A stretch of 26,813 bases of DNA from a virus. Position 1 is the first letter of the stretch; the number at the start of each line of letters is the position of its first letter. Below, piece after piece: positions 10,445 through 24,879 of the stretch. A program made the position numbers and the translations under genes. The notes under the pieces were generated by a model. That model searched no databases. It worked only from the letters and a program-made list of their open reading frames with translations, and was not told where the DNA came from. The stretch is taken from positions 1-26,813 of the IMG/VR virus record IMGVR_UViG_3300037161_000124. One strand, 5' to 3'.

Positions 10445-11272
10445 TTAGACGTATTGGTTGGAAAGTATGTTGAAGTTTGAACCTCTCGTTTGTCCCACAG
10501 CCATATTCCCCCGCTCGCACTGCTGGATGTAGCTCACCGCATTGATGCTCTTGATGAGCGCCAGCGCCCGCCCGGCCATGGCGACCGCCAGCGGCGACAA
10601 GTTGGCCTTCGGCCCGTATCGCGCGGCAATCCTCAGCGCCAGGTTGTACTGCAAGGCGTCCACGTATTCCGGCGGCGTGATGATGGGATCGAGCGGCGAT
10701 TGAAACTGCTGCACGGTCTGCCAGGTGTACAGCGCGCCTTGGGTGACGTAGGCGTTTGCCGGAATCGGCCACAGGTAGATCTTTCCATTGGGTACCGCGG
10801 GCTCGTAATAGAGTTTCGTGGGATTGCCCGAGGTCAGGTCCTTGGGACTCAGGGCCGCCCACTGCTGCGCGGTGAGTTGATCGAAAGGTTCCTCGATCAC
10901 CGGGTTGACGTTGGTGAAGAGGTACGACGCCCACTCGATGCGCTGTGGCCTTTCGATGGGGATGTCGGTCAGCCCGCTCAGCCCAACGAGATACGGAAAG
11001 TCCGGGCCGCCCTGCCCGATGTTGATCGCAAACAGGGTGCGCAGGATGGCCGGCACCATGTTCTGCTGCGCTTTCCAGCTTGAAACCAACTGGTTCAATT
11101 CCCAAAGTGAATCCTGGTAGTCGTAGATCGAGTAGCCACGCCCAGCCATCTGCATGACGCCGGCGATGCGCAGCGCATGGTAGATGAGATCGCCCACGAT
11201 GGGCGCGTTCGCCGGATTGTTCGCGTACTGCGCGCCGGTGAATTGGCCGAAGTTGATAGTGGAGGTGGACAT
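10445..11272 (-). CDS. gp4-like tail accessory factor, paralogue D
   Basis: 275 residues from ATG 11272-11270 (MSTSTINFGQFTGAQY). The frame is open further upstream to 11512, but that part covers the promoter and two small genes of the other strand, so the internal ATG is preferred. LIYHALRIAGVMQMAG, LWELNQLVSSW, RPQRIEWASYLF, YYEPAVPNGKIYLWPIPANA and ITPPEYVDALQYNLALRIAARYG are the gp4-type blocks also seen in paralogues A-C, but this copy is the most diverged and longest. It probably forms another ring or adaptor in the portal-tail junction. Confidence 0.7.
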   Translation of the reverse strand: MSTSTINFGQFTGAQYANNPANAPIVGDLIYHALRIAGVMQMAGRGYSIYDYQDSLWELNQLVSSWKAQQNMVPAILRTLFAINIGQGGPDFPYLVGLSGLTDIPIERPQRIEWASYLFTNVNPVIEEPFDQLTAQQWAALSPKDLTSGNPTKLYYEPAVPNGKIYLWPIPANAYVTQGALYTWQTVQQFQSPLDPIITPPEYVDALQYNLALRIAARYGPKANLSPLAVAMAGRALALIKSINAVSYIQQCERGNMAVGQTRGSNFNILSNQYV

Positions 11273-12374: not shown

Positions 12375-12398
12375 CTGAAAGCTGAAAGCTGATGGCTA
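12375..12398. repeat. heptamer tract after 12396-14303
   Basis: Two CTGAAAG units and GCTGATG, ending GGCTA with the minus-strand TAG. Confidence 0.75.
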
Positions 12399-14303
12399 CT
12401 TCGCCAGATGCAGCGCGCGCAACACCCGCGTCCAGATCGCTTGATGCTGCTGCGGCACGGCCCGCGCCATGGCCCTGTACCTCATTGGCTGAAGCGTATT
12501 CACCCACACGCCGCTTTGGCAGTCGTAGATGGCGCCCGACCAGTCGTTGATGACGGGCAAGGCAACCTGGGCGGCCGCGTTGCAGGGTCCTTGCAGGCCG
12601 ATGTAGGTGAAGTATTGCGGGATCGCCACGTAGACCAGCGCGCTCGTGCTGTGAGCTTGCGTACCGGTGCCGTCCCAGCCGCGTTCGACGGGAACCGCAT
12701 CGGTAGGGTTTACCGGCGCCGCAGTCACTCGCATGGCTTCCTGGTCCACGTAGAGCACCGTGAACGAAGCGCCTGAAGGCTGCCCAATGGATCCGTTGCT
12801 GACCGGCTGCCCAGGACCCGTGACGCTCGCGGTGGAGGCGAGAGAGACGGAAAGTTGGAACTCGTTTACCGGCGCCGTGAACGTGGTCGTGGGGATGGCC
12901 TTCAACTGCGCGGGCGGCGGGGGCGGCGGCGGAGGTGGCGGCGGAGGCGGAGGCGGCGGCGGCGGCGGTACCGGAGGTAAGCTTGCCGCTTTCCAGGCCA
13001 AACCGGTCACCGTGGGAGACAAGGGAATTCCCGCCAGCATCTGCCAGGTGTAGCTGGTCACAGGCGTGTTGTCGTTGCATGCTCCGGATTGGAGCAGGGC
13101 GTAAGGCTGATCGTAGAACAGGGTGGTGCGAGTGGCCCCGATCTGGCTCGAAAACCCGAACAGCCACGTCCAGAACGCGCCGTTGGCGTTGTAGGTTTCC
13201 ATCCCCGGCCAGCCGCAGCCGTTGATAAGCTCGGATTGGCAGAGGACATTCGAGCCGGCTGGGCAGTATCCGGGCGGTCCCGATTCGTCGATCTGGACCT
13301 GGAGCCCCGCCGCGGTCGCGGAAGCCGCCCAACTTGCATAGACTCCCGGCTGCGCGCTCCATGACGGCGTGCTGTCGAAACTCCTGAAGTAGATCTCCGC
13401 ACCGAAAACCTGCATCCCGCTGGGCACCGAGGCTGTGACGTTGGCGACATACGCGCCGTCTGCCATGGTGTAGCCGGAGGCGCACAGCACGGCAGATCCT
13501 CCAGTCGCCGCGTGAATGGCCGGGCACAGGCCGGCTATGAGCGTGTTCCAATCCGCCACGCTGAGCGTCTGGCCCGTGGAGGCGTTGTCCGCTTCTTCGG
13601 GTTCGTGGGCTGCGATGACAGTGTGGAGCGAAACGCTGGGCGAAAGGTTATGGATGTGCGCAACCATGGCGGCCAAGAAAGGCGCTTCGCAAGCAATCCG
13701 TTGCGCGACTGTCATGGTGGATGGCGTGAGGCCGCAAATCAGCCAGGGCGCGCCGGCGCCGGGAACTCCGAAACTGATGGGCGCCAGCCGGATGGTGAGG
13801 CCCTGCGCCGCGATGTACGCCATCATGGCGTCGTAGAACGCAAGATTGGTTGTCAGGCGCGTGCATGTGGCCGTCGCGTATGTTCCCGCGCAACTGAAGC
13901 CGGTCGCCGCGGTGTACTCGGCCGACATCATGTACGGCATGTAGTCGATGTTCCAGACTACGCCCGTGGCGCCGCTCTGCGCCAAAATGTTGACGAAGGC
14001 TTCCTGGAGGGGCACCGAGTTGTACGGACAGGTTCCGGTGGTCGGGCAGTTCTCGATCCAGTTGGCCGAAGCTCCCACCAGCTCCAGATCGTTTGCAAAG
14101 GGCGCCGTAAGCGCTGGAACCGGAACGGCGTTGAGGAAAGTGTTGTACGCCGAAATGTAAGCTTGAATCGTCGGCGATCCCGTCTGCGGGCAGCTCGCCG
14201 ACGTGCCTGCCGCGCCCGCGGCCGCCCAGCAGGTGCCGGGCTGGGCGTTGCCGGCTTGGGCGAAGATGACCAGGGCCGCGCAGATGAGGATGGCGTGCTT
14301 CAT
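12396..14303 (-). CDS. exported TIM-barrel-like protein with polyproline linker and shared C-terminal domain
   Basis: 635 residues from ATG 14303 (MKHAILICAALVIFAQAGNA), a clear Sec signal peptide cut after about residue 20. Residues 70-440 look like a glycoside-hydrolase-type barrel: NIDYMPYMM, helix-strand repeats, AAHEPEEAD (Glu234/236/237) and QVQIDESG (Glu340) as candidate acid/base and nucleophile, and Cys-rich extracellular character. A run of about 20 Pro (446-465, GGC-type tract at 12916-12968) links to a C-terminal domain (475-566, GPGQPVSNGSIG... LYVDQEAMRV... VERGW) also present in 17627-18595. I infer a secreted or surface carbohydrate-active protein; a tail-spike role is possible, though signal peptides are unusual for virion proteins. 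Confidence 0.65.
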   Translation of the reverse strand: MKHAILICAALVIFAQAGNAQPGTCWAAAGAAGTSASCPQTGSPTIQAYISAYNTFLNAVPVPALTAPFANDLELVGASANWIENCPTTGTCPYNSVPLQEAFVNILAQSGATGVVWNIDYMPYMMSAEYTAATGFSCAGTYATATCTRLTTNLAFYDAMMAYIAAQGLTIRLAPISFGVPGAGAPWLICGLTPSTMTVAQRIACEAPFLAAMVAHIHNLSPSVSLHTVIAAHEPEEADNASTGQTLSVADWNTLIAGLCPAIHAATGGSAVLCASGYTMADGAYVANVTASVPSGMQVFGAEIYFRSFDSTPSWSAQPGVYASWAASATAAGLQVQIDESGPPGYCPAGSNVLCQSELINGCGWPGMETYNANGAFWTWLFGFSSQIGATRTTLFYDQPYALLQSGACNDNTPVTSYTWQMLAGIPLSPTVTGLAWKAASLPPVPPPPPPPPPPPPPPPPPPPAQLKAIPTTTFTAPVNEFQLSVSLASTASVTGPGQPVSNGSIGQPSGASFTVLYVDQEAMRVTAAPVNPTDAVPVERGWDGTGTQAHSTSALVYVAIPQYFTYIGLQGPCNAAAQVALPVINDWSGAIYDCQSGVWVNTLQPMRYRAMARAVPQQHQAIWTRVLRALHLAK

Positions 14304-14322
14304 GCGATTATGGGAGTAGATG

Positions 14323-14664
14323 ATGACGCGACGTGCTCTGTTTGCGCTGGTGGTCGGGGCCGTGGGCTGCAAGCCTGAACCAGGCCTTTCCGATTGGAGC
14401 GTGCGTGTCGAAACCGGGCCAGACGAAATATCGGAGATCGAAGCCGCCCACGAAGAACTCTGGCAACTGTCGGGTGCTCTTCATCCGCAAGACGTGCCGC
14501 AAGTGCGCGCTTTTCTTGAGCGTGCCATTGCGTCGCTGGAGACGAACATCCAGGATACGGATCGCATGCCCGGACCCCTCACATTTCCGTGGTGGCAGGA
14601 GTTGCGACCTGTGGATGTGCAGACGCTTCGAAAACTTCGGACGTTGCTGGAGGCGCTGGCATGA
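14323..14664 (+). CDS. putative lipoprotein with IExAHxELW motif
   Basis: 113 residues from the second ATG (14323-14325), which has GGGAG six bases before it; the first ATG (14320) is too close. The N-terminus MTRRALFALVVGAVGCKP is a lipoprotein-type signal with Cys after AVG. The mature part contains ISEIEAAHEELWQLSG, which matches ITAIEDAHQELWNMG in the minus-strand gene 15178-15543, so the two are related. The function is unknown. Its start lies only 19 bases from the start of the divergent exported protein, and its stop overlaps the next gene (ATGA). Confidence 0.55.
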   Translation: MTRRALFALVVGAVGCKPEPGLSDWSVRVETGPDEISEIEAAHEELWQLSGALHPQDVPQVRAFLERAIASLETNIQDTDRMPGPLTFPWWQELRPVDVQTLRKLRTLLEALA

Positions 14665-15050
14665 CCCGCCGCGCTTTATTCGCTCTGGCTGCCGCTGCGG
14701 TGCTGGACCCTGAGCGATTGCTTTGGCGTCCCGGCGCGAAACTCGTTTCGATTCCGAAGGCAATGTCGTTTCAGGGTTGGGGAATTCCGGGAACCGACCC
14801 GCCACTCTGCGTGGGTGACATCCTGACGTTTTGGAACGATCCGCAGCAATACCGCGTAACGGCGACGCACCCGCCGGGCGAATATGTGCGGGTCGAGTTG
14901 AAGCCGGTGCTGAATTCAGCGCGTATCACTGGTCTGATGCCAATGAAGAGAATCGCGCGTGAAGGCCGTTTCTACGCGAAATACGTGGAACTCCCTGGTG
15001 GCAGCGACCGCAACGGGGGCACCTTCGAGGCTTCGGTCCATTTAATTTAA
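14661..15050 (+). CDS. signal-peptide protein, unknown
   Basis: 129 residues from ATG 14661 (overlapping the stop of 14323-14664). It begins MTRRALFALAAAAVLDPERL, nearly the same N-terminus as its upstream neighbour, with twin Arg and a hydrophobic core. The following LLWRPGAKLVSIP is a pattern I associate with phage proteins of unknown function. The mature portion is beta-rich (GDILTFWNDPQQYRVTATHPPGEYVRVELKP). It may be cell-surface or virion-associated. The frame stays open after the TAA; see the next small ORF. Confidence 0.55.
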   Translation: MTRRALFALAAAAVLDPERLLWRPGAKLVSIPKAMSFQGWGIPGTDPPLCVGDILTFWNDPQQYRVTATHPPGEYVRVELKPVLNSARITGLMPMKRIAREGRFYAKYVELPGGSDRNGGTFEASVHLI

Positions 15051-15090
15051 GCCTCGGGGACTGTCGCCTTCGGGCGACAGCGGAAGAGGC
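15051..15090. terminator. hairpin with UUCG loop after 14661-15050
   Basis: CTGTCGCC-TTCG-GGCGACAG (15061-15080) is an 8-bp perfect stem with a stable tetraloop, flanked by GCCTC (15051-15055) pairing with GAGGC (15086-15090). It begins right after the plus-strand stop. No T-run follows, so a classical terminator is uncertain; it could be an mRNA-end or processing structure. Confidence 0.5.
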
Positions 15091-15103
15091 TTGCCCGTAT
15101 AGT
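15074..15103 (+). promoter_or_regulatory. possible promoter for 15153-15305
   Basis: GCGACA (15074-15079), 18-base spacer, TATAGT (15098-15103). It lies partly within the hairpin, so transcription and the hairpin are linked in position. Confidence 0.35.
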
Positions 15104-15152
15104 AGACGGCCCTCAAGCAGCGGTCTTGCAGGCTATTCTCAACACCCCCGAA

Positions 15153-15305
15153 ATGCTGGATCTGATTGAGCTTCGAGTTACCAAAGACGAAAGAAAGGTG
15201 ATGGGACTCGGTACGTTCTATCGGTGGCCGGAGTTCCAGCGCATTCTGTCAGATGCCCGTCCTGTCCAACTACAAACTGGACCGATATCAACTCTGCGGG
15301 CTTAA
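15153..15305 (+). CDS. possible 50-residue protein, overlapping the opposite-strand gene
   Basis: MLDLIELRVTKDERKVMGLG, then TFYRWPEFQRILSD and a short tail. The frame is open upstream to 15051 without ATG but reads protein-like (ARIVDGPQAAVLQAILNTPE), so an alternative start such as TTG at 15126 would give a longer product. It overlaps the 3' end of 15178-15543 on the other strand by 128 bases, which lowers confidence. No family recognised. Confidence 0.35.
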   Translation: MLDLIELRVTKDERKVMGLGTFYRWPEFQRILSDARPVQLQTGPISTLRA

Positions 15306-15543
15306 CCAGCCGCAGTTTCCGCAGCACCCGCATCAGGATGTTCTCGCGCGGGGTGAACGTGCACACGAAGGAATCGCCGGGGCGCGGCTGCGGCCAGACT
15401 TCGATGGTGCCCATGTTCCACAACTCTTGGTGGGCGTCTTCAATCGCGGTTATGTCGAAGGTGGAATTGTCCATCGAAGAAGTTTGGGTGGACAGCCTCA
15501 CGGCGCGGTCCACCAGCGCCTCTGGCACACTGGAAAGCCACAC
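15178..15543 (-). CDS. protein with IExAHxELW motif, possibly 5'-frameshifted
   Basis: 121 residues from GTG 15543-15541 (VWLSSVPEALVDRAVRLSTQ), with GGAAGG about nine bases upstream. FDITAIEDAHQELWNMG aligns with ISEIEAAHEELWQLSG of the lipoprotein-like gene on the opposite strand, although this copy has no signal peptide. The rest includes FTPRENILMRVLRKLRLVKP. The codons just upstream in another frame read MDGEPGADFN...FKLKVRAEGPPG, which joins smoothly to VWLSSVPEALVD after a one-base shift, so the true protein may be about 28 residues longer. Function unknown. Confidence 0.55.
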   Translation of the reverse strand: MWLSSVPEALVDRAVRLSTQTSSMDNSTFDITAIEDAHQELWNMGTIEVWPQPRPGDSFVCTFTPRENILMRVLRKLRLVKPAELISVQFVVGQDGHLTECAGTPATDRTYRVPSPFFRLW

Positions 15544-15626
15544 CCGGGCGGACCTTCCGCGCGTACCTTGAGCTTGAAATCCGGGAAAGGGCGGCGGTTA
15601 AAGTCCGCCCCTGGCTCCCCGTCCAT
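15541..15626 (-). other. possible frameshifted N-terminus of 15178-15543
   Basis: From ATG 15626 the minus strand reads MDGEPGADFNRRPFPDFKLK, then VRAEGPPG, before entering a nonsensical frame. A -1 shift at CCCGGGTG continues as VWLSSVPEAL. The site is not a classical slippery heptamer, so a mutation or sequencing indel is more likely than programmed shifting. Confidence 0.35.
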
Positions 15627-15644
15627 CGGAACTTGGCGCGCGCG

Positions 15645-15917
15645 TTACGCCGTGGCGGCAGGCGCGGGATCGGCGGCCGGCGGCGGTGCTCCACCCGCGG
15701 CGGCGGCGGTTTCCTTGCCGAAACGGAAGCGGCGATCATGTTCAAGTTGGATCAGCTTGTCCGGCAGCGCCTTGGCGACGTTGGCTAGGGTCTTCGCCAC
15801 ACGTTCGTCGGCGTGCTTGCCGCGGTCGAGATGCGCCTCTATGCTGGTGCCCTCTTCCTGAAATGGGTCCTTGAGGGCGTTCGCTACGTCCTTCATGTAC
15901 TCAGTTGGCTGTTTCAT
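15645..15917 (-). CDS. small helical protein with Ala/Pro tail, unknown
   Basis: 90 residues: MKQPTEYMKDVANALKDPFQEE and a charged helical body (HADERVAKTLANVAKALPDKLIQLEHDRRFRFG), followed by an Ala/Gly/Pro-rich low-complexity tail. GAAGGAGC lies about ten bases before the ATG, a good ribosome site. There is no membrane segment and no recognised family. It sits between two unknown late genes and is probably a minor virion or assembly factor. Confidence 0.55.
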   Translation of the reverse strand: MKQPTEYMKDVANALKDPFQEEGTSIEAHLDRGKHADERVAKTLANVAKALPDKLIQLEHDRRFRFGKETAAAAGGAPPPAADPAPAATA

Positions 15918-15960
15918 GAGACTGGTTGCTCCTTCGGTTTCAAGGATACCATAGCCAGCT

Positions 15961-16434
15961 TTACGCCTCGGCCAGCGAGTAAGCCAACAGATCGCGGAAC
16001 CATTCGACCTTCGCCCGTTCGGCGGTGTCGCGGATCACATAGAGCACACTGAAGGTGATCGCGGTTGAATTGTCCGGCCGATTCTCACGCCGCATGTGCA
16101 TGTCGAGCCCGGAGTACGAATCGACGGCGCGATCCTCGTTGTTTTTCAACGGAATGGGAAGCATGAAGACTTCTCCGCTGGCCGATACCGACGCGCGAAG
16201 GGTGCGGGCCATTCCTACGACAGTTCCCTTGATCCAGCGTTCAAAGGCGTCGACGCAGTGAAACTGCCAGCCATCCGGTAGGACGATTGTGCCCTCCACC
16301 AGTTGCGGCGGTCCCTGCGTAGCGGGTGCCAGCGCGAGGCGTGGTCGCGTTATGGGCGCTCCCGCAAGCGCTTCAGCCAGTATTTCTGCCGCAACGTAGA
16401 GCATGGCGACGGGATTCAATTCATCACGCTTCAA
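15961..16434 (-). CDS. late-region protein, unknown
   Basis: 157 residues (MKRDELNPVAMLYVAAEILAEALAG...). A helical N-terminus precedes a beta-rich middle (GTIVLPDGWQFHCVDAFERWIKGTVVGMARTLRA, EVFMLPIPLKNNED) and a region ending DTAERAKVEWFRDLLAYSLAEA. No family recognised. The ATG lies inside the last codons of the GroES-like gene (11-base overlap), so translation is coupled; Met11 is an alternative start that would still overlap slightly less. It could be a tail-completion or head-tail protein by position, but nothing in the sequence proves it. Confidence 0.55.
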   Translation of the reverse strand: MKRDELNPVAMLYVAAEILAEALAGAPITRPRLALAPATQGPPQLVEGTIVLPDGWQFHCVDAFERWIKGTVVGMARTLRASVSASGEVFMLPIPLKNNEDRAVDSYSGLDMHMRRENRPDNSTAITFSVLYVIRDTAERAKVEWFRDLLAYSLAEA

Positions 16435-17044
16435 GTACGCCCTCGATCTTCGATTTCGGGATGATGCAGTCAGCCAGCGGCTCTACAGCCCACAACTCGG
16501 GATGGAGCGTCGCCACTTCCGCGTGGGTTTCGCAAACGCGAAAGCTCTGACGCCCTTCGTTACCGATACCAAAGGCCCGATACTTCGCCTCTTTTAAGCA
16601 ACGCACCAGACGGTTCTGATGATCGCCCATCTTCCAAGACACTTGGCAGATATCCGCTTCAAGTACGCCCTCGATCTGCGATTCCGGGATGATGCGGTAG
16701 CGCACGCCGTCCTCAGCGTAGTCCTGGCCGCCCTTGTGTGCGTAGAGCACCAGGTCGCCGACGTTCACGTCGAGGGGGATGCGCTCAGTGTGCGCAAACT
16801 CTTCCCACACGCCCTGCGACGATCCTTGCCAGTCGGGGATGAACCGCTTGCCGTACTTGTAGCCTTCGCCTACGGCAACGACGTGCCCGCGATCGGTGTA
16901 ATTGCCGCTCGTGCCGCCCTTCTCGTCGAAGGTTCCCGCGTGCAACGATGTACCGGGCATGACGACGCGGCTGGACGGTGCGGTACGCTCGCTTTCGGCG
17001 AGGGGGCGAACCACTACAGCATTGAAGAGAGGCTGGAATTTCAT
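16424..17044 (-). CDS. GroES-like co-chaperonin with duplicated C-terminus and Cys domain
   Basis: 206 residues. Residues 1-130 follow the Cpn10 pattern: PLFNAVVVRPLAESERT, GHVVAVGEG, VNVGDLVLYAHKGGQDY and YRIIPESQIEGVLE, with an acidic/Gly-rich loop at 35-50 in place of the usual mobile loop. Ordinary GroES ends there. Here a 76-residue extension follows, with Cys133, Cys149, Cys171 and His174 (zinc-domain style, VCETHAEVATLHPELW), and ends IIPKSKIEGVLEA, repeating residues 118-130. A phage GroES, like T4 gp31, would partner host GroEL to fold the coat protein. No Shine-Dalgarno is visible; a heptamer element lies just upstream. Confidence 0.75.
   Translation of the reverse strand: MKFQPLFNAVVVRPLAESERTAPSSRVVMPGTSLHAGTFDEKGGTSGNYTDRGHVVAVGEGYKYGKRFIPDWQGSSQGVWEEFAHTERIPLDVNVGDLVLYAHKGGQDYAEDGVRYRIIPESQIEGVLEADICQVSWKMGDHQNRLVRCLKEAKYRAFGIGNEGRQSFRVCETHAEVATLHPELWAVEPLADCIIPKSKIEGVLEA
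16427..16467. repeat. direct repeat, copy 1, C-terminus of the GroES-like gene
   Basis: 41 bases matching 16655-16695 with two mismatches at an offset of exactly 228 bases (76 codons). It encodes IIPKSKIEGVLEA at the end of the protein. Confidence 0.85.
16655..16695. repeat. direct repeat, copy 2, end of the Cpn10 core
   Basis: Partner of 16427-16467; encodes IIPESQIEGVLEA. Recombination between the copies would remove 228 bases in frame and leave a normal-length GroES of about 130 residues. Confidence 0.85.
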
Positions 17045-17049
17045 GGAAG

Positions 17050-17089
17050 TTTGGCTGATGGCTGAAAGCTGAAAGCTGACAGCTTCTTA
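17050..17089. repeat. heptamer element between 17087-17443 and GroES
   Basis: TTTGGCTGA left end, GCTGATG, GCTGAAA and GCTGACA units, GCTTCTTA right end carrying the TAA of 17087-17443. It nearly fills the gap to the GroES start. Confidence 0.85.
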
Positions 17090-17443
17090 CACGTTCAAAT
17101 CTGCTGACACTCTTACTGGATCTGCTGCTGTTCCGTCCACCCAGATAGTAGACAGATCAATCGCCGGCGCCAGTGAAAACTCGATAGCTCCGGGGGGGTC
17201 GGCCCAGGAGCCGCCGGGAGCCGTGGCCGTCGCTGGCGACAATTCGCCGCTCACGTCGTTGGCATTGGTCGTTGCGGGCGTGCGGCCTCCGTAGATTCCC
17301 GCCATGACATAGCCCAGGCCGGTGCCTCCGGTAGCCATTTGGATGAAGACCCGGTTGGCCATCGGGTTCTGTACCAGGCCGAGGGCGACGGAGAGATTGA
17401 CCGGCGTTCCGGGGTTTAGCGTGATCTTGACATTTCTTCGCAT
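17087..17443 (-). CDS. small beta-rich decoration-type protein
   Basis: 118 residues (MRRNVKITLNPGTPVNLSVALGLVQN, MANRVFIQMATGGTGLGYVMAGIYGG..., GAIEFSLAPAIDLSTIWVDGTAADPVRVSADLNV). The alternating hydrophobic pattern, Gly/Thr/Ala richness and the final WVDGTAADPVRVSAD strand suit a head-decoration or small fibre protein. The start is preceded by AAAGGATTCTCCC, the recurrent leader. It lies between the exported repeat-domain protein and GroES, in the coat-proximal part of the operon. The family is not recognised with certainty. Confidence 0.55.
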   Translation of the reverse strand: MRRNVKITLNPGTPVNLSVALGLVQNPMANRVFIQMATGGTGLGYVMAGIYGGRTPATTNANDVSGELSPATATAPGGSWADPPGAIEFSLAPAIDLSTIWVDGTAADPVRVSADLNV

Positions 17444-17456
17444 GGGAGAATCCTTT

Positions 17457-17539
17457 GGTGGCTGGTGGATAGTGACTGGTGGCTGGTGGTTTTACTGAAA
17501 GCTGAAAACTGAAAGCTGAAAGCTGAAAGCTGACAGCTT
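17457..17539. repeat. long composite heptamer tract
   Basis: GGTGGCT units with a GGATAGTG interruption, then five CTGAAAG-type units. The first 35 or so bases nearly repeat the tract at 26000-26035. Confidence 0.85.
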
Positions 17540-17546
17540 TTGAAGG

Positions 17547-17584
17547 CAGGGGACCTCCGAGGGAGAAGGCATGGAGGCCCCCTG
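17547..17584. terminator. strong hairpin downstream of 17627-18595
   Basis: CAGGGG-A-CCTCC (17547-17558) pairs with GGAGG-C-CCCCTG (17573-17584), 11 pairs with one mismatch and a 14-base loop. It lies just after the minus-strand gene; no T-run follows, so a transcript-end stabiliser is as likely as a terminator. Confidence 0.45.
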
Positions 17585-17626
17585 GGGCGGCGCGCTCAAA
17601 TAGCAGGAGCCGAGCCGCCGAGAGCG

Positions 17627-18595
17627 TTAATACACGTAGAGATATGGGCCAGTGCCCGTGTGGAACGAAGTCGGAACGGTCAGCGCCGGGACGGTCCCGA
17701 AGGTTGCGCCGGTTTGTCCTACGGTCAGGATGTTGTCGTCGATCCCGGTATCCACCATGCGGACGGTGGTAGAGCCGGTCGAGTTGTCCTGGAGGCAGCC
17801 GAAATACTGCGCCGGTCCCACCGCGTAGAGCTTGGAGGTGAAGGCGTAGTTCTCGAACACCGAAGCGGTCACCGAGGCCTGTCCGGCGAGCGCGCTGTTG
17901 GCCAGGGCGTTGCCGGCGGAGTCGTAGAGAATCACGTACCGCTTATTGCCGGTGACCGTGGTCCCGTTGAGCAGGCCGATGCCGGTGATTAACTTGCTGC
18001 CCGGCAGGTCCACTTCCGTGCAATAGACCGTGGTGGAGCCGACGGCGGTGCCGTTGGTGTCCAGGCCGGTATAAGCAACCGCTCCGATGGTCGGGAAGTT
18101 GAGGCGGTAAGCGGTAGCCGTGCCGCTGCCGGTAACCCAGGAACCACCCAGGCATTCGGCATATTGATTCAGGTGCACGTTGATGGTGGGGTTGACGGCG
18201 GTGGCGGAATTGCAGGTGCCGGAGGGCAGGCCGCTGGACTCCCACACCAGTTGCTGGGGCGTGGCGATCCAGACGAGCGCTCCGGAGGCATGCGCCACGG
18301 CGGGAGATTGGAAGCCGCGTTCCACCAGCACAGGCTGGCCGGTGGCGGGCGCGACAGTGACGCGCATGGCTTCGCCGTCCACATATAGGATGGTCCAGGC
18401 CGCGCCCGAAGGCGTGCCGATGGAACCCTGCGAGACGGGTTGGCCCGGCCCGTTAACGCCGGTAAGCGACGCCAGGGTCACATAGGGCTGGGTGGCAGTG
18501 ATGGCGGCGGAAAGGGTGGTGTTGGAAAGTTGGGCCGCAGGCAGCGCGAAGCAGGCCAGCAGCAGGGCGATGGTAACGAGAGTGATGTTTTTCAT
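17627..18595 (-). CDS. exported protein with the shared GPGQPVS-domain
   Basis: 322 residues with a Sec signal peptide (MKNITLVTIALLLACFALPA). Residues 24-115 carry VNGPGQPVSQGSIGTPSGAA, LYVDGEAMRVT, VERGFQ and ALVWIATPQQ, clearly homologous to the C-terminal domain of the exported barrel protein 12396-14303. The remaining 200 residues are beta-rich (YRLNFPTIGAVAYTGLDTNGT, KLITGIGLLNGTTVTGNKRYVILYDS...), like fibre or adhesin shafts. AAAGGATAAACTACGACC precedes the ATG. It lies immediately downstream of the coat gene. The export signal on a probable structural protein is odd; it may instead coat the host surface or be a secreted partner. Confidence 0.6.
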   Translation of the reverse strand: MKNITLVTIALLLACFALPAAQLSNTTLSAAITATQPYVTLASLTGVNGPGQPVSQGSIGTPSGAAWTILYVDGEAMRVTVAPATGQPVLVERGFQSPAVAHASGALVWIATPQQLVWESSGLPSGTCNSATAVNPTINVHLNQYAECLGGSWVTGSGTATAYRLNFPTIGAVAYTGLDTNGTAVGSTTVYCTEVDLPGSKLITGIGLLNGTTVTGNKRYVILYDSAGNALANSALAGQASVTASVFENYAFTSKLYAVGPAQYFGCLQDNSTGSTTVRMVDTGIDDNILTVGQTGATFGTVPALTVPTSFHTGTGPYLYVY

Positions 18596-18619: not shown

Positions 18620-18690
18620 GGGTGGGTGGTGGCTGGTGGCTGGTGGTTTAGAACAAACCTACCGACCACTAGCCACTAATCACTAGCCCC
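18620..18690. repeat. heptamer tracts in both orientations after coat
   Basis: GGTGGCT units at 18620-18648 and the inverted CACTAGC/CACTAAT units at 18667-18688, next to the coat stop at 18683. Confidence 0.7.
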
Positions 18691-19948
18691 CAATTCTGAC
18701 CGCCCATTCCGGCCTGATGGTCTTGAACCCGCCCAGCACTTCCAGGCGCGTGATGCGTTCGTTGGAGCCGATCAGGAAGCCGCGCGTCAGACGCATGGCC
18801 ATGCCCAGCTTGGGATTGATGACCTGCTCGGACCAGTCCAAGCCGCCGGGGGTTTCCTGTTTCACAACGGCCAAAGTGAAGGCCTGCTTGTGGAAGCCCA
18901 TGTTCTGCGGGCTGGTCACTCCGCCGATGCTGGAGAAGCTGGCATGGCCCACGAGGTACACGCTGATGGCCGCGCCGGCTGCCGGAGCGCTCACCACCGT
19001 CTGAAACGGGGAGGTGGTGTCGAAGTTGATGGGAGGCTCGATCGGGATCGTGGCCGCGCCGGTGTTGTCCGCCACCACGGGGGCCGTCACAACGAAGGTG
19101 CGCAGCTTGTTGGTGGAACGGAAGGACAGCGGGTTGGTGGCGATGCACGCCGTGGAGCCCGAGCCGATGGAGATGATGTCGCCCGGGTTCAGGATCGCCT
19201 GCGAGGCGTCCCAGCCACTGGTGACGAGCGAGCTGCCGCTCTGGTTGGCGCCGTTGACGATCGGGTTGGAGGTCGGAGCGCCGGCGGTGCCGAGCGCGCC
19301 CACGACGGCCGCGGACACGTTCTGGTCCATGGACCACTTCCAGCCCACGGCCTTGCCCATGTTGCCGTACAGGTACTGGTCGGAGACTTCCTTGGTCGGC
19401 AGCAGGAAGTTGAAGTTGAAGCCCAGCACGTTGCCCTGGGCATCGGGGTTCACCACCAGCGAGCGGAACTGATCGGAGGTGGGGCAAGCCGCGTTCTCGA
19501 GCGCGATCTTGGCTTGCGTGTACGTCGCGAGAGACGCCGGGGTAACACCCGGTTGGCCCACGAAGTTGTACACGTATTGGTACTGGTCGAGGCCATCGCC
19601 GTCCATCATCTGAGCGATGATGGCGCTGGACGATTCGGTGTAGCGCTCGCCAAAGCGGTCGATGGTGAGCACCAGGTCCTGATCGGAGATCTGCAGATCC
19701 TGTCCCCAGAGGGTGTTGATGGTCACGGGGACCATCTGCTCCTGGATCGCTTCGGGCTGTGCGGCGTCGCCGCGGCGGCCGCGGAAGCGGACCGGAATGC
19801 GGGCGTTCACCGTGTATCCGACCTTTTCATTCGGGACGGCGTAACTGTCGTCAAATTCCCTTGAGACGTACTTGCAAAAGACGGCGTTGTTATCCCACCG
19901 CTCCAAGGAGTCTTGTAGAATGGCGACCGGGTTTAGGAGGTCGTTCAT
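18683..19948 (-). CDS. P22 gp5-like major coat protein
   Basis: 421 residues from ATG 19948-19946, with GAGGAAAACATA before it; the frame is open further upstream but that part holds the opposite-strand module. P22 coat is 430 residues. Family features: helical N-arm (ILQDSLERWDNNAVFCKYVSREFDD), GYTVNARIPVRFRGRRGD, MVPVTINTLWGQDLQISDQDLVLTIDRFGERY, LLPTKEVSDQYLYGNMGKA, an inserted beta-rich central domain (about 240-330), and the final RLTRGFLIGSNERITRLEVLGGFKTIRPEWAVRI. It forms the HK97-fold capsid on the scaffold encoded upstream, possibly folded with help from the GroES-like protein. Confidence 0.9.
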   Translation of the reverse strand: MNDLLNPVAILQDSLERWDNNAVFCKYVSREFDDSYAVPNEKVGYTVNARIPVRFRGRRGDAAQPEAIQEQMVPVTINTLWGQDLQISDQDLVLTIDRFGERYTESSSAIIAQMMDGDGLDQYQYVYNFVGQPGVTPASLATYTQAKIALENAACPTSDQFRSLVVNPDAQGNVLGFNFNFLLPTKEVSDQYLYGNMGKAVGWKWSMDQNVSAAVVGALGTAGAPTSNPIVNGANQSGSSLVTSGWDASQAILNPGDIISIGSGSTACIATNPLSFRSTNKLRTFVVTAPVVADNTGAATIPIEPPINFDTTSPFQTVVSAPAAGAAISVYLVGHASFSSIGGVTSPQNMGFHKQAFTLAVVKQETPGGLDWSEQVINPKLGMAMRLTRGFLIGSNERITRLEVLGGFKTIRPEWAVRIGG

Positions 19949-20188: not shown

Positions 20189-20929
20189 ATGGATCTGGAC
20201 GTTGTACGTTGCGGACGCTGTTTGCAGGAAAAGCCGCTGACATCCTTTGGGAACATCAGGCGAACCGGAAAAACCTGCAAGGACTGCCATCGTGCACGTA
20301 TGCACGAGTGGCACCGCAACCATCCAGATTACAACCGAAAGTGGCTGGAGGCCCACGGTCGCAAAGTCGGCGACGACCGCAGGACAGGGAGGCCCAGTCT
20401 TTTTCGTTCGGTGGCGGAACGGCAGGAGCACAAAAAAGAGTACATGCGCCGCTGGCGCGAAAGCCACCCCAATAGCGCCCGGGAGTGGCGGAGCCGCAAT
20501 CCCAACTACGGCCGCCAAAGAAAGCGAACTTCTCCCGACAAAGCGCGGGTCTATAACCAGAAATACAGGGACGGGAACGCCGCTGAACTTAATGCGAGGT
20601 CCAACGCCCGGCGAAGAGAGCGGCGCGTTACGGATGCCGAGTACGCCCAGCGAGAGCGGGATCGCTGCCTTCGTCAGTGGAAGAATCGCCGGTTCTCCCT
20701 TTGCGATCGAATTAAGCTGCTCCGTGCGCAGGATGGAAAATGCGCTAATCCGGCATGTCAAAAAGAATTGGGCGAGGCGTTCCACATCGACCACATAATA
20801 CCTTTGGCGCGTGGTGGAACGAGTGATCCCGAGAATCTTCAACTTCTTTGCCCGCGCTGTAATTGCAGCAAGGGTGCCAAAGATCCCCAAGAGTGGCTGA
20901 CGCAGGTAAGTTCGGAGCGTACAGCTTAA
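20189..20929 (+). CDS. HNH endonuclease with N-terminal zinc motif
   Basis: 246 residues. An N-terminal CGRC...CKDCH zinc knuckle pair (Cys8, Cys11, Cys30, Cys33) is followed by a highly basic Arg/Asn-rich linker (about 35-165) and a C-terminal HNH domain: CANPAC, HIDHIIPLARGGTSDPENL, LLCPRCNCSKG (Asp201-His202, Asn216, with Cys185/190/221/224 for zinc). This is the common phage HNH/homing arrangement. It lies on the plus strand between scaffold and coat, in one unit with the RHH gene, and is probably an insertion into the head operon. Confidence 0.85.
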   Translation: MDLDVVRCGRCLQEKPLTSFGNIRRTGKTCKDCHRARMHEWHRNHPDYNRKWLEAHGRKVGDDRRTGRPSLFRSVAERQEHKKEYMRRWRESHPNSAREWRSRNPNYGRQRKRTSPDKARVYNQKYRDGNAAELNARSNARRRERRVTDAEYAQRERDRCLRQWKNRRFSLCDRIKLLRAQDGKCANPACQKELGEAFHIDHIIPLARGGTSDPENLQLLCPRCNCSKGAKDPQEWLTQVSSERTA

Positions 20930-20978: not shown

Positions 20979-22163
20979 CTAGTTGCCGTACTCCGCTTTG
21001 CGCAGCCTCCGGAATTCCGCAGTCGGATCATTGGGAAATTTCGCAAGGTGCGCGGCCAGCGTGCCATCTTTCGTCATCTGAGACAACGATTTGACGGGGC
21101 TGGTAGAGCGCGCACCCGATCCAACGGGACTCGGGGGGGCTGGCTTGGGAGCCGGCGCGGGCGAAGCCGCGCGGGGAGCGGGAGCAACCTTCGAAGGCGC
21201 TGGAGCTGCAGCGGCAGCGGCGACAGCCGCCACCGGTTGGGCAGCGGGCTGTGTTTCCTCGATGGGGTCGTCGTCCTCGGCGATCGCGGCGAGTTCCGGC
21301 AGCTCGATCTTCCCCAGCTCTTGCACGGCCAGGGCGAGTTTTTTCCGGTACTGCACGATGGTTTCGCCTTCGTTGAACTTCGTGGCGATACAGATCTTGT
21401 TGGCTTCGGTCGGGTGGGTTGCCAGCCAGTAGGCCAGCTCCGCGCCATGGTCGAAAGACCAAAGGGCCTGGTTCATCACGTCGTTCGTTATGTCGACATC
21501 GTGTTGCTGAGCAATCACGACATCAAAGTCGTCATGCCGCGCCTTGGCTTCGTCGATCTGGCTCTTACGCCAGTTTTCGAATGCCTCCTGGTCGCGGGTG
21601 TCGGAATCTTTACGGGCCTGCGCTTCGGTTTCGCGGGCGGCGGTGGTTACCTTCTCGCGGTCGATGCGCGCGCGCTCGTCGTAGCGCCAGTCGGCGATGG
21701 CTTCGACGAATGCGGGATCGTAGACTCCGTTTTCGTAATCTTCGGGTTTCGGCTTGGGAGCGGGCTGCTCGGCAGCAGTGGGCTGTGCCTGGTGGCTGGT
21801 GGCTGGCTCGGCAGCGACCGGCTCGGCGGCGGCGGCCGGCGCCGCGGCGGCCGGCGTTGCTTTGCGGGCCGCTTCCAATTCCTGTTTCAGCCGCTCGTTC
21901 TCGGCGGCCGTGGTTTCCCATTTCTTTTTGTAGCCGCTCGACGGTTTGGGCGCGGGCGGCGCGGCGGGTTCCGCGGCGGCAACCGGTTCGGCAACTGGCT
22001 CAACCGGCGCGTCGGTGGCCGGTGCTGGTTCGGCGGGCGGGACTTGGCCGCCTTCGTCGGAGTGGGTTTCGACCGTCGAGCCGGTGAAGCCGAGGTCGGC
22101 CAGAACTTTCTCTACCACTTTGGGGTCCTGGCGAGTTTCAAACGTCAAATCTTCGGTGTTCAT
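20979..22163 (-). CDS. scaffolding protein
   Basis: 394 residues, acidic, Ala/Pro/Glu-rich and mainly helical, as scaffolds are. A disordered N-terminal half (about 40-145) with many PAP/EP repeats leads to helical regions (DERARIDREKVTTAARETEAQARKD, WRKSQIDEAKARHDDFDVVI, LAYWLATHPTEANKICI). A second Ala/Pro linker follows (about 305-350). The C-terminus KSLSQMTKDGTLAAHLAKFP ... EFRRLRKAE is a basic helical end, in the position where P22 gp8 binds coat. Placement between portal and coat supports the call. Part of the Ala/Pro linker (EPATSHQAQ) is encoded by a heptamer repeat. Confidence 0.75.
   Translation of the reverse strand: MNTEDLTFETRQDPKVVEKVLADLGFTGSTVETHSDEGGQVPPAEPAPATDAPVEPVAEPVAAAEPAAPPAPKPSSGYKKKWETTAAENERLKQELEAARKATPAAAAPAAAAEPVAAEPATSHQAQPTAAEQPAPKPKPEDYENGVYDPAFVEAIADWRYDERARIDREKVTTAARETEAQARKDSDTRDQEAFENWRKSQIDEAKARHDDFDVVIAQQHDVDITNDVMNQALWSFDHGAELAYWLATHPTEANKICIATKFNEGETIVQYRKKLALAVQELGKIELPELAAIAEDDDPIEETQPAAQPVAAVAAAAAAPAPSKVAPAPRAASPAPAPKPAPPSPVGSGARSTSPVKSLSQMTKDGTLAAHLAKFPNDPTAEFRRLRKAEYGN
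21788..21811. repeat. heptamer tract inside the scaffold gene
   Basis: GGTGGCT units (tgcct-ggtggctggtggctgg region) coding for PATSHQ on the minus strand. The same tract type as intergenic copies, here kept in frame within a disordered linker. Confidence 0.65.
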
Positions 22164-22189: not shown

Positions 22190-22224
22190 AAGCTGAAAGC
22201 TGGCTGCTGATGGCTGAAAGCCTA
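22190..22224. repeat. heptamer tract between scaffold and portal
   Basis: GCTGAAA, GCTGGCT, GCTGATG and GCTGAAA units, ending at the portal stop (CTA at 22222-22224). It lies just upstream of the scaffold start, which has no Shine-Dalgarno. Confidence 0.75.
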
Positions 22225-24501
22225 TGCCGCTTGCGGCATCGGCTCGGAAGCTGGCGGCGCGCCGGCGGCTGCGGGCTGCTGCTGGGCTTGCGCGGCCTGC
22301 TGCGCGTCGGCCTGCTGTTGCTGTCCCTGCTGCTGGAGCTGTTGCTGGTGCTGCTGGTCGGAAAGTTCCTTCTGGTGCTGCTGCTCGTCGCGTTGCGCCT
22401 GCAGTTGGTAAACCTGGTCGATCTTCTGATTGATCGCCGCGTACTGGGATTGGAACATCTGCAAGGCCTGATCGCTGCCCAGCTTCAGATCGGCTATTGC
22501 TAATTGGGTAGCGTTATTCCCGGCGGCGATGCGCTCTTTCGATTCGTTCTGGATGCGCTGGGTTTTCAACTCTTCGGCTTGCGCCGTCATCTGCGTGTTC
22601 ATGGCCTGCAGGAGTTGCTGCATTTGGACGATCTGCTGCTGAACCTGCGGCGGTACCGGGGCTTGGCCTTCCTGCTGTTGCGCCACGTCGGGCGGTCTTA
22701 GGCGGTCCGCGATTTCGTCGATGCCCGGAACGTCGAAGGTTTTCAGAATCAGATCCAGCGCCCGAGTCATGGCCTGCGGCATGGCTTGATATAGCTGGAA
22801 TAACTGTTCCTGAGCTTGCGCCCGCCGCGATGCGTAACTCGGCCCTGACCCGAGAGTCACGTCGTACCTTGCAGCGCTCTTGATGTCGTAGATCCGGTCC
22901 ACACCCTTGTTGTCGGTGTGTTTCTTGTTGAGCCACACCTGCCGCACTGAGCCGTCCGGATCGAAGACGGTCTCCAATCTTTCCTCGTCGTAGATCTTGG
23001 GCGCCAGATCTACCAGGATGCGAAGCACGTGCATCTGGGAGATGGCCAGATTGTCGTGGTAGTTGAAGTGGGCGTTATCGCCTTGCCGCTGGATGGCGAG
23101 AATCGCTCTGCCCGACTGATCCGGCTGGGACTCGCCCATGTCCGGGCGGTACATGCTGGTGGTCGCGCGGATATCGTCCGCCGCGTGTGCGATGGCCTGG
23201 GTGATGTCCTGGGTATTTACGGCAGGCGAAATGCGCTGCGGCGGCGGGACTGGGATAGGACCGGTTCCCGTGTCCTGCACTTGCGGGTCGTACTCGAGGT
23301 AAGCCTGCGCCACGCGGTTGCAGTTGGCCCACTTGGCCGCGTAGTTCTCGATCTGGTTCTTGGCTACCAGCCATTGACTGATAGGAGCCAGCCCGATGGC
23401 TTCGGCTTCCTTCGAGCGCATGAAGTCATAGGACAGGTTGGCATCCATGGCCGGCCTGACCATGCCGCGCACCGTTCGCTTGCCCTCGACGATGACCTCG
23501 CGGCCGATGATCGGTACAATCGGTATCCACTTGCCCGGCCAGGTCCAGCGGTCCAGGATTTCGACGCCGTTGAGCTTGTAGCCCTTGACGGTTTTCTTTG
23601 TGGTGGGGCGCCACGCTCTTACCCTGTCTTGTTCGGTGATCTCGTCCTCGCGCTTGATCTGCCCGTCCTCGAGCTGTGCCAGTCTGCCGCGCTTGGTGAG
23701 CACCTTCCAGAATTCGGCTGTTCTTACGCTGCCGGTTGGAAACCAGTCTTTGCGAATCTGATCGCCGACGCTCTGGAAATCGAAGAGGCTGGCAACCTTG
23801 GAATCGGGGTAGGTCTCCTTGTAGACCTGCGTGTCGAGGTCCTCGGTGACCATGCAGCGGCGCATGTCCGAGTAATCGAACTCGTCGGCCGAGGGATCGG
23901 GATAAACCGTGAAGGGATTGGCGACACGCCGCAAAACGATCTTCTGTTTGAAGCTGTCGTCCTCTTCCCAAACCGTCAACACGCGCACCCAGCCGCGGCC
24001 GCACTTCACGGCATGCTCATAGCCGGTTGCCCAGACCACGCGGGCGTTGCTGTCGTTGTCGATGTTTCTTACGAGACCCTGCAGGACCTCGGCGGTTTCC
24101 TTGTCGGCGCCTTCACCCACCGGACTGATTCTCGGCTCCGGGGGAGATTGGCGGGCGTCGTTGACCACTTGGTCGACGGCGGGGCCGATCCTATCGAAGA
24201 CCAAACACGGGCGCCCCCTGCGCTCTTCGAGCATCTGGGCATCCCAATGTTTCAGTCCGTCGACGAATTCGAATTCCTGCCGCGCGCGCTCCCGAAACGG
24301 CTGCTCCCAGCTTGCTACCGCGGTGAAGTACTCGTGCGCTTCGACGAGGATGTCTTCGTCGGTCAGGCCGTCTTCGTCGGTCTCGACCTTCGGTTCTTCC
24401 TTGTGCGCCGAGAGTACGGATAAAGGAGTATGCCGGCTTCCCGACTCCATGGAGGGGTCGAAGCTGGTGCGGGTTTCCGAGGGTGGAAGCTGGGGAGACA
24501 T
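22222..24501 (-). CDS. P22 gp1-like portal protein
   Basis: 759 residues from ATG 24501-24499; the frame opens further upstream, but that part is repeat DNA (Trp/Pro/Arg nonsense). P22 portal is 725. Recognisable portal blocks: ARQEFEFVDGLKHWDAQMLEERRGRPCLVFDRIGPAVDQVVND, NPFTVYPDPSADEFDYSDMRRCMV, WIPIVPIIGREVIVEGKR, the RGMVRPAMDANLSYDFMRSKEAE segment, DDIRATTSMYRPDMGESQPDQSGRAILA and a long Gln-rich helical C-terminus (about 640-759) corresponding to the barrel helix region. It forms the dodecameric ring through which DNA enters. The exact start is uncertain because there is no ribosome site. Confidence 0.9.
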   Translation of the reverse strand: MSPQLPPSETRTSFDPSMESGSRHTPLSVLSAHKEEPKVETDEDGLTDEDILVEAHEYFTAVASWEQPFRERARQEFEFVDGLKHWDAQMLEERRGRPCLVFDRIGPAVDQVVNDARQSPPEPRISPVGEGADKETAEVLQGLVRNIDNDSNARVVWATGYEHAVKCGRGWVRVLTVWEEDDSFKQKIVLRRVANPFTVYPDPSADEFDYSDMRRCMVTEDLDTQVYKETYPDSKVASLFDFQSVGDQIRKDWFPTGSVRTAEFWKVLTKRGRLAQLEDGQIKREDEITEQDRVRAWRPTTKKTVKGYKLNGVEILDRWTWPGKWIPIVPIIGREVIVEGKRTVRGMVRPAMDANLSYDFMRSKEAEAIGLAPISQWLVAKNQIENYAAKWANCNRVAQAYLEYDPQVQDTGTGPIPVPPPQRISPAVNTQDITQAIAHAADDIRATTSMYRPDMGESQPDQSGRAILAIQRQGDNAHFNYHDNLAISQMHVLRILVDLAPKIYDEERLETVFDPDGSVRQVWLNKKHTDNKGVDRIYDIKSAARYDVTLGSGPSYASRRAQAQEQLFQLYQAMPQAMTRALDLILKTFDVPGIDEIADRLRPPDVAQQQEGQAPVPPQVQQQIVQMQQLLQAMNTQMTAQAEELKTQRIQNESKERIAAGNNATQLAIADLKLGSDQALQMFQSQYAAINQKIDQVYQLQAQRDEQQHQKELSDQQHQQQLQQQGQQQQADAQQAAQAQQQPAAAGAPPASEPMPQAA

Positions 24502-24534
24502 GAGCGGGAGAGGGGGTGAGCGGGCGAGGGGGCG
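24502..24534. repeat. octamer repeat (GAGSGGGN) upstream of portal
   Basis: Four 8-base units: GAGCGGGA, GAGGGGGT, GAGCGGGC, GAGGGGGC. An inverted copy with the same last three units lies at 25741-25772. Confidence 0.75.
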
Positions 24535-24548
24535 GCACGGCGGCGTTT

Positions 24549-24583
24549 CCAGCCACCAGCCACCGCCCACTATCCACCGTTCT
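24549..24583. repeat. GGTGGCT-type heptamer tract after 24584-24862
   Basis: Read on the minus strand: GGTGGATAGTGGGCGGTGG, then GGTGGCT. It follows the TAA of the small gene 24584-24862 on that strand. Confidence 0.7.
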
Positions 24584-24862
24584 TTACGCCGCGTCGCCCG
24601 ATGCGGGCGTGGCGCCGGCGTCATCTGCGTCGGGCTCGCCGTGACACTGGGCCGAGTAGGCGTGGGCGTCGTCGGAGTTATCGAACACCGCGGGCGGTTC
24701 GGAGGGCGGATACTGCGGGTTGCCGTTCTCGTCCGGCATGGGGTCGTGCTCTTTCGAGACCATGAAGCCGTTCTTGGCTTTGCTGATGGTCGTGGAGCGC
24801 ACCGGGCCGCGCTTGGCTTTCTTGCCTTTACCTTTGGACATCGAGATCGATGAGAGTTTCAT
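24584..24862 (-). CDS. small hydrophilic protein, unknown
   Basis: 92 residues. The N-terminal half is basic (MSKGKGKKAKRGPVRSTTISKAKNGFMVSKEHDP) and the C-terminal half acidic (EPPAVFDNSDDAHAYSAQCHGEPDADD). The middle AKNGFMVSKEHDPMPDENGN and FDNSDDAHAY are reminiscent of short phage head-region proteins, but no family is certain. The ATG follows CCAAAGGATTCCCCT, the recurrent leader. Met8 is an alternative start. It sits directly upstream of the portal. Confidence 0.55.
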   Translation of the reverse strand: MKLSSISMSKGKGKKAKRGPVRSTTISKAKNGFMVSKEHDPMPDENGNPQYPPSEPPAVFDNSDDAHAYSAQCHGEPDADDAGATPASGDAA

Positions 24863-24879
24863 AGGGGAATCCTTTGGGG

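Follow-up and report, generated by a model that had tools for sequence, protein, structure and literature searches.

The window, the whole 26,813-nucleotide stretch of viral record IMGVR_UViG_3300037161_000124, is a fragment of a P22-like podovirus. Its minus strand carries portal, scaffolding and coat genes (Table 1); the coat ORF also matches PHROG 1302. On the same strand, two ORFs singled out in an initial annotation were recovered and are labelled here P0001 and P0002. A host search by DNA was swamped by matches to the proline-codon repeat and to period-7 repeats, and gave no firm lead on the host.

Table 1. Positions of the features discussed, numbered along the window.
Feature	Position	Strand	Remarks
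P0001, 635 aa	12396..14303	-	signal peptide, putative enzyme (alpha/beta barrel), Pro linker, shared domain; mature part with 16 Cys
Shared domain in P0001, residues ~470-602	12498..12896	-	from the P0002-P0001 alignment; kept in G001
Pro linker (19 in a row), residues 446-464	12912..12968	-	
P0001 putative glycoside-hydrolase-like region, residues 21-441	12981..14243	-	candidate acid/base E234, candidate nucleophile E340
P0001 predicted Sec signal peptide, residues 1-20	14244..14303	-	heuristic score 43.8; in G001 and G002 homologues
P0002, 322 aa	17627..18595	-	coat-adjacent; signal peptide, shared beta-barrel domain, C-terminal beta-sandwich
P0002 C-terminal beta-sandwich, residues 160-322	17630..18118	-	Cys192 and Cys267; fold matches
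Shared domain in P0002, residues 23-155	18131..18529	-	small beta-barrel (22-115) and Cys128-Cys148 region
P0002 predicted Sec signal peptide, residues 1-21	18533..18595	-	heuristic score 44.5; family-wide; SD-like site
P22-like coat protein	18683..19948	-	P22_CoatProtein 1.3e-10, phrog_283 2.3e-41; directly upstream of P0002
Scaffolding protein	20979..22163	-	phrog_8865 3.8e-10
P22-like portal protein (ORF as listed)	22222..24624	-	PF16510 2.5e-142

The three motifs by which a common domain had been recognised (GPGQPVSxGSIGxPSGA, LYVDxEAMRV and VERG) are found in both proteins, and the likeness exceeds them: the shared domain of P0002 aligns with the C-terminus of P0001 at 49% identity (E = 8.4e-28), and the same likeness is present in G001, a relative with 62-81% identity. 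A sequence profile of the P0002 domain matches phage tail-tip proteins (8vjh_A of phage Chi, 2.4e-7), and VIA-align gave it Z scores of 10.4 to 9in6_M, 7.8 to 9n71_A and 7.4 to 8vjh_B.

The AlphaFold2 model of P0002 has a pLDDT of 85.5. The fold of its C-terminal domain matches 9jwb_Z of the cyanophage A4 capsid asymmetric unit over 149 residues (Z 15.8, identity 9%, role taken from the entry title), 8zdp_v of the Douge central fibre (Z 14.0) and 9d93_Pa of the Bxb1 tail tip (Z 12.9). In Chi (8vjh), Douge (8zdp) and Bxb1 (9d93) the domains that resemble those of P0002 lie within large tail-tip or fibre proteins, unlike P0002. Lectins and CBMs match the C-terminal domain too, with Z of about 6-11, so the fold alone is no proof of a virion role. 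Foldseek matches to IBDV VP2 were set aside on account of their rmsd near 19 Å. The P0002 sequence gave no useful match in Pfam, PHROGs, NCBIfam or the PDB (PHROG 1101, 'tail protein', reached E = 0.009), nor did tblastn of P0002 and a second family member against a collection of named phages give any match.

Relatives of P0002 were found at 80 IMG/VR loci. We examined 77 loci, 70 with complete 5' ends and with near-identical contigs remaining among them; 54 representatives are those below 92% identity. Wherever upstream sequence exceeds 700 bp (68 of 68 loci), the coat gene lies directly upstream of the P0002-family gene. An annotated cement gene occupies the same slot, directly after coat, in Pseudanabaena phage Pam1 (ON014753; order portal-scaffold-coat-cement-adaptor). 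The Pam1 protein differs in having 140 aa and no signal peptide, and it is likened to P0002 by gene position. Among 396 sampled Acidobacteriota genomes, a P0002 profile matched four, one strongly (the L057 genome) and three weakly and partially.

The Sec-type signal peptides first noted at both N-termini are borne out by heuristic prediction: they read MKHAILICAALVIFAQAGNA and MKNITLVTIALLLACFALPAA, each followed by Q at the predicted cleavage site, and are kept in G001. Signal peptides were called with a home-made heuristic rule rather than SignalP, with a strict cut-off at a score of at least 30. In the P0002 family, 66 of the 70 members with complete 5' ends carry one, 65 of them at the strict cut-off, and the other four have a long hydrophobic start as judged by eye; this census excludes L004, L005, L058 and L059, which are copies of the window/L003, and includes L057. 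At the same cut-off no signal peptide was called in the coat (0/63), portal (0/41) or adaptor (0/89) genes of these loci. Of 523 other genes there, 23 scored as bearing one. Structural CDS of four named podoviruses reached a score of at least 26 once in 53 (PBR31 orf35). Mean pairwise identity within the family is 27% in the signal-peptide region versus 49% in the mature part; despite this divergence the region is hydrophobic in all 54 representatives. The layout is n-h-c with ends of the A-x-A/Q type, for example AFG/Q and LHA/Q in the P0002 family (slash, predicted cleavage). An SD-like match of at least 4 nt accompanies the signal-peptide start in 37 of the 54 representatives, versus 24 of the 220 in-frame starts that lie further downstream.

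The mature part has a nearly invariant set of four cysteines across the family: 51 representatives have four, two have six and one has three. Even and odd cysteine counts stand at 31:3 in the genes with signal peptides versus 53:59 in other genes (p = 2.6e-6), where the former set of 36 genes retains at least one likely false positive, an adaptor gene at 10445-11272 with one Cys. Paired cysteines are a usual, not an obligatory, trait of Sec-exported proteins.

Within P0001, the candidate catalytic residues proposed initially can be placed at E234 (AAHEPEE) and E340 (QIDES). Both are conserved in G001 and in a second relative, G002, as is the glycoside-hydrolase-like region around them (82% in G001). 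The AlphaFold2 model of P0001 is poor (mean pLDDT 37.5), probably because there are too few homologues; alternation of beta strands and alpha helices is visible at this low confidence, and, judged by eye on that low-confidence model, strand order and E234/E340 would fit the (beta/alpha)8 barrel of glycoside hydrolase clan GH-A, in which strands 4 and 7 are each followed by Glu. P0001 matched no glycoside hydrolase family in Pfam, NCBIfam or PHROGs, and its enzyme region no recognised family of any kind there. Its enzyme region had no useful sequence match in the PDB and no relative in the 396 Acidobacteriota genomes, a set without a positive control, and tblastn of P0001 against the named phages found no match. 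The enzyme domain and its activity are putative. The linker, described initially as 20 prolines, is present and has 19; its length is not conserved, since G001 has a shorter one and G002 none. G002 also lacks the shared domain; the enzyme part of P0001 can thus occur without that domain.

Signal peptides recur on tail spikes of related soil phages, ahead of a head-binding domain homologous to annotated spikes (PBR31 tail spike, E = 2e-15). Among 28 distinct spikes from 32 loci, a Cys pair is present in 18/18 spike head-binding domains with a signal peptide versus 0/10 relatives without one (Fisher 7.6e-8, uncorrected for shared ancestry); signal-peptide status was judged by eye, not by rule, for L156, and by eye also for the G406 and G407 spikes. 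One scan pattern used to find spikes held one of the two cysteines (GGCVFTY) and a second pattern did not, so the share of spikes with signal peptides is biased, but neither pattern selected for the second Cys. All six contigs of ~40-42 kb that were read whole contain a spike with a signal peptide. The head-binding domain profile had no match in the G001 and G002 pieces or in copies of the window's P0001/P0002 region. Named spikes with the same domain, from Xanthomonas phage PBR31, Pam1, Shewanella phage X14 and others (E down to 3e-19), differ from the soil-phage spikes in that the chain begins at the domain, with neither signal peptide nor Cys pair in the nine of nine examined. Known tail proteins homologous to these but free of signals had been foreseen as an argument against export, and in part they exist; as they lack the Cys pair as well, they favour export rather than refute it. 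Burkholderia phage BcepC6B gp19 (YP_024939, tail fibre) and Xanthomonas phage PBR31 orf35 (putative structural protein) have signal-peptide-like N-termini; their structural roles are by annotation, and they belong to a protein family other than P0001 and P0002.

In the initial annotation the two were taken either as secreted proteins altering the host envelope, or as virion or receptor-binding proteins matured outside the cytoplasm. We favour the second on account of gene position, folds and the signal peptides on spike head-binding domains; the signal peptides look real and conserved, and membership of P0001 and P0002 in the virion would follow from that reading. Conserved predicted signal peptides, paired cysteines, coat adjacency and virion-type folds can all be read from the sequences. 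Export is well supported, and signal peptides with paired cysteines on proteins resembling outer parts of a particle suggest that the particle exterior is completed outside the cytoplasm. We put the probability at about 55% that P0002 is a decoration protein in the cement slot and P0001 an enzyme arm with the same docking domain, both exported and docking outside the cytoplasm.

P0001 and P0002 would be made as Sec pre-proteins, cleaved at A-x-A/Q and oxidised outside the cytoplasm to disulfide-bonded forms. Heads with their DNA, portal, adaptors and ejection proteins would assemble in the cytoplasm without the exported parts, namely the decoration protein and, in relatives, also tail spikes and fibres. 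Docking would probably take place at lysis, when failure of the inner membrane would let the exported parts encounter the particles and attach to them. We infer that export happens in the real host, that the exported parts belong to the virion, when they dock and that P0001 is an active enzyme. Tailed phages are thought to complete their particles in the cytoplasm, and to our knowledge the spikes and decoration proteins described so far assemble there and have no signal peptides. P22 spikes can join finished heads in vitro. The filamentous phage coat proteins pIII and pVIII have signal peptides and enter virions assembled outside the cytoplasm; those phages differ in being non-lytic filaments extruded through the membrane, not tailed phages.

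An exported protein could equally remain in the envelope and never contact a virion. P0001 and P0002 might then act in the periplasm, on the outer surface or in the surroundings of the infected cell, for instance by masking receptors (superinfection exclusion), stopping released virions from sticking to debris or cutting exopolysaccharide. We consider this unlikely, though it is the alternative to be taken most seriously: the export signals and paired cysteines fit it as they stand, as do the lectin- and CBM-like matches of the P0002 C-terminal domain and the enzymes with signal peptides in the same operon, among them, in G001, an alpha-galactosidase of family GH27 (Pfam Melibiase_2, 5.9e-39). 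It sits poorly with the cement slot held by P0002 at every testable locus, with capsid, fibre and tail-tip chains as its best fold matches, and with the signal peptides that the same phages put on a spike head-binding domain, which is known for joining the virion.

It is improbable that P0001 represents an auxiliary metabolic gene, acquired by the phage and encoding a secreted glycoside hydrolase of host type for degrading soil polymers, with a shared domain that is a recombination accident. The G002 version without that domain and the GH27 neighbour in G001 point that way, and active glycoside hydrolases carried by soil viruses are described in PMC6786970; against it, both the window and G001 keep enzyme and shared domain fused, and no relative of the enzyme region was found in the Acidobacteriota set (which has no positive control) or in named phages.

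That the hydrophobic N-termini are cytoplasmic leaders for assembly or ejection, cut by another protease, has a precedent in P22 gp7, which according to the annotation note of its record has 20 residues removed from its N-terminus by host OpdA; the classic n-h-c layout with A-x-A/Q ends, the coupling with Cys pairs and even Cys parity, and the coat, portal and adaptor genes lacking such N-termini make it very improbable. Wrong start codons, a caveat raised in the initial annotation, or assembly artefacts can be dismissed almost entirely, since the same layout recurs across dozens of contigs, sampled separately, with SD-like sites at the signal-peptide starts and a short gap after the coat stop. 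In its favour, no SD-like match of at least 4 nt was found at the P0001 start, so the caveat is disfavoured for P0002, and 23 of the 523 other locus genes also score as bearing signal peptides.

Starting from P0002 as an exported decoration protein and P0001 as its enzyme-bearing counterpart, a broader proposal, to which we would give a little under even odds, is that these virions are built in two compartments. Heads and ejection machinery would be cytoplasmic, and everything on the outside (decoration, spikes, fibres and enzyme arms) would be Sec-secreted, oxidised in the periplasm and attached at or after lysis, possibly snapping onto sister particles too. Among the titles and abstract openings that our literature search covered, none described exported virion proteins in tailed phages, which is weak evidence of absence given thin coverage of subscription papers. 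If true, such building would add a new mode to tailed-phage morphogenesis. The annotated structural proteins with signal peptides in named phages, BcepC6B gp19 and PBR31 orf35, make the model testable. It would account for the making of disulfide-stabilised spikes and decoration proteins and would bear on predictions of virion proteins and of host range in soil viromes; a viral gene with a signal peptide need not be an auxiliary metabolic gene.

The virion genes of this 26.8-kb IMG/VR virus record lie in a minus-strand operon, in which the coat gene is followed by P0002 (322 residues) and P0001 (635 residues) stands further along, ahead of the adaptors. The initial annotation had proposed that these two proteins carry Sec signal peptides and share sequence motifs. 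Both proposals were borne out: the motifs fall within a 133-residue region of 49% identity (E 8e-28), and predicted signal peptides are present also on both homologues in G001, an 87.75-kb relative (IMGVR_UViG_3300023259_000001) that keeps the two genes in the same order at 62% and 81% identity. In a second relative, G002, the signal peptide and enzyme part of P0001 are present, in two frames, and the linker and shared domain are absent; its coat-adjacent gene has a signal peptide and matches the family profile only at positions 1-137 (signal peptide plus shared domain). This distribution, an enzyme without the domain and a coat-adjacent gene with it, indicates that the shared domain is a module moving between proteins.

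Coordinates and matches of features in the window and in related loci
Feature	Location	Strand	Match or remark
P0001	window 12396-14303	-	
P0002	window 17627-18595	-	
P22-like portal	window operon	-	PF16510, 2.5e-142
Scaffold	window operon	-	phrog_8865
P22-type coat	window operon	-	PF11651; phrog_283
gp4-like adaptors	window operon	-	phrog_637
Head closure Hc3	window operon	-	phrog_578
Up to four gp4-like adaptor paralogues	window 4706-5392, 6452-7207, 7229-7987, 10445-11272	-	two match phrog_12985/637; remaining two alike by eye
GroES-like co-chaperonin within virion operon	window 16424-17044	-	PF00166 9.2e-8; NCBIfam 6e-9 (below its cut-off); annotated GroES gene also in PBR31
ORF inside minus-strand operon	window 8096-9085	+	Radical SAM, weak (7e-4, under the cut-off)
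Possible homing endonucleases	window 9666-10439, 20189-20929	+	HNH-endonuclease-like motifs by eye
ORFs divergent from P0001	window 14320-14664, 14589-15050	+	MTRRALFAL-type, export-signal-like starts; similar counterpart of the second in G001
Ten period-7 repeat tracts	window 1158-1182, 2102-2133, 4682-4708, 6418-6442, 9127-9151, 17052-17084, 17495-17538, 24879-24912, 26008-26034, 26037-26068		mostly CTGAAAG units, mostly intergenic
Single open frame	G001:37123-51606 (L036-L037)		4,827 codons; perhaps giant virion or ejected protein
Three consecutive gene calls, twice	G002:19910-23014, 25265-28369 (L040, L041)		equal lengths and starts; either duplication or assembly artefact
alpha-Galactosidase-like protein	G001:79059-81281 (= L052:6471-8693)		Melibiase_2, 5.9e-39
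P0002-family copy	L077:5920-6240		stopped at ~103 residues although match runs on
PBR31 orf35	L208:24674-25483		annotated putative structural protein; signal-peptide-like start
BcepC6B gp19	L209:1459-2532		annotated tail fibre; signal-peptide-like start

In P0001 a signal peptide is followed by some 420 residues rich in Cys, a run of 19 prolines (20 had been claimed) and the shared domain. A barrel-like enzyme with candidate Glu residues had also been suggested; strands and helices do alternate in a low-confidence model, and by our count E234 follows strand four and E340 strand seven, as in the layout of clan GH-A. The profile libraries gave no match to the region. We treat it as a putative enzyme-like region and do not assign it to clan GH-A. 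P0001 would not be the sole enzyme of the exported set, since the GH27-type alpha-galactosidase adjoining the P0002 homologue in G001 bears a signal peptide.

The home-made heuristic rule used to call signal peptides asks for a positively charged n-region, a hydrophobic core free of charges, and small residues at both -3 and -1; it accepts any start codon in frame. Under this rule 66 of the 70 P0002-family members whose 5' ends are complete score as carrying a signal peptide; L093, L105, L051 and L055 do not, but by eye have long hydrophobic starts. At a strict cut-off (30), the same loci yielded none in coat (0/63), portal (0/41) or adaptor (0/89) genes and 23 among 523 other genes. Across 54 representatives, mean pairwise identity was 27% in the signal peptide versus 49% in the mature part; despite this divergence the hydrophobic core is kept in every one, and the signal-peptide ends have the form AFG|Q, LHA|Q, SFA|Q and similar. 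Shine-Dalgarno-like sites accompany 37/54 of these starts versus 24/220 downstream starts.

A single eight-member alignment used as query recovered 80 IMG/VR loci of the family; tblastn among 50,697 records detected no relatives in named phages. One further member (L057) lies in an Acidobacteria MAG contig that may be a phage contig binned there; searching for the host at the DNA level yielded no secure connection. The exact repeat pattern CAGCTTTCAGCTTTCAGCTTTCAG was found in 2 of 149 Acidobacteriota genomes (reversed control, 0), and G001 has no period-7 tracts under the same rule.

Tail spikes follow the pattern of P0002. Six distinct P0002-carrying loci encode a tail-spike head-binding domain that is a relative (2e-15) of the spike annotated in Xanthomonas phage PBR31, and in all six a signal peptide directly precedes it, whereas nine named-phage spikes start at the domain itself and lack a signal peptide. 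Scanning for this domain gave 32 loci, 28 of them distinct. In all 18 with a signal peptide (17 by rule, L156 by eye), and in none of the 10 without, a pair of cysteines lies around positions 25 and 82 (Fisher 7.6e-8, ancestry uncorrected; one scan pattern included the first Cys, the second being unselected). Six relative contigs of ~40-42 kb (G405-G410), read whole, each combine coat with signal-peptide-bearing P0002 and spike (two spikes, in G406 and G407, by eye), a count not independent of the six spike loci because two phages are common to both. Only G406 has a terminal repeat, and coat, portal and adaptor genes of the six received no signal-peptide calls.

Mature P0002 has four cysteines in 51 of 54 representatives, six in two and three in one, with conserved columns C128, C148, C192 and C267. 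Over these six contigs, G001 and the window, median Cys per 100 residues was 1.54 in signal-peptide genes versus 0.77 in others; among genes with any Cys, counts were even in 31/34 versus 53/112 (p 2.6e-6), as expected if cysteines pair.

The coat gene lies just upstream of the P0002 homologue in all 68 loci with enough upstream sequence, mostly within 120 bp; in Pam1 the gene annotated in this slot encodes a cement protein. An AlphaFold2 model of P0002 (54 aligned members, pLDDT 85.5) matched, in its C-terminal domain, the cyanophage A4 capsid chain (Z 15.8), Douge central fibre (14.0) and Bxb1 tail tip (12.9), lectin-like and CBM folds ranking next. The N-terminal shared domain matched VP1 capsid entry 9in6 at Z 10.4, with lower scores for a tail tube (7.8) and for the tail tip of Chi (7.4); Z under 8 may reflect only a common arrangement. 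Family-profile sequence matches there were minor tail protein 8vjh_A (2.4e-7) and tip attachment protein 8rk3_o (4e-4). The capsid, fibre and tail domains among these matches belong to virion surfaces.

Export is the step with the strongest support, as judged from sequence. Membership in the virion is inferred from the slot of the gene, the matched folds and the domains of the spikes; the main rival holds that the proteins, likewise exported, function outside the virion. As virion components, they would dock onto particles at lysis, because they would be exported while heads are cytoplasmic and P22 spikes can bind finished heads in vitro. Among named phages, PBR31 orf35 and BcepC6B gp19 offer a possible test bed.
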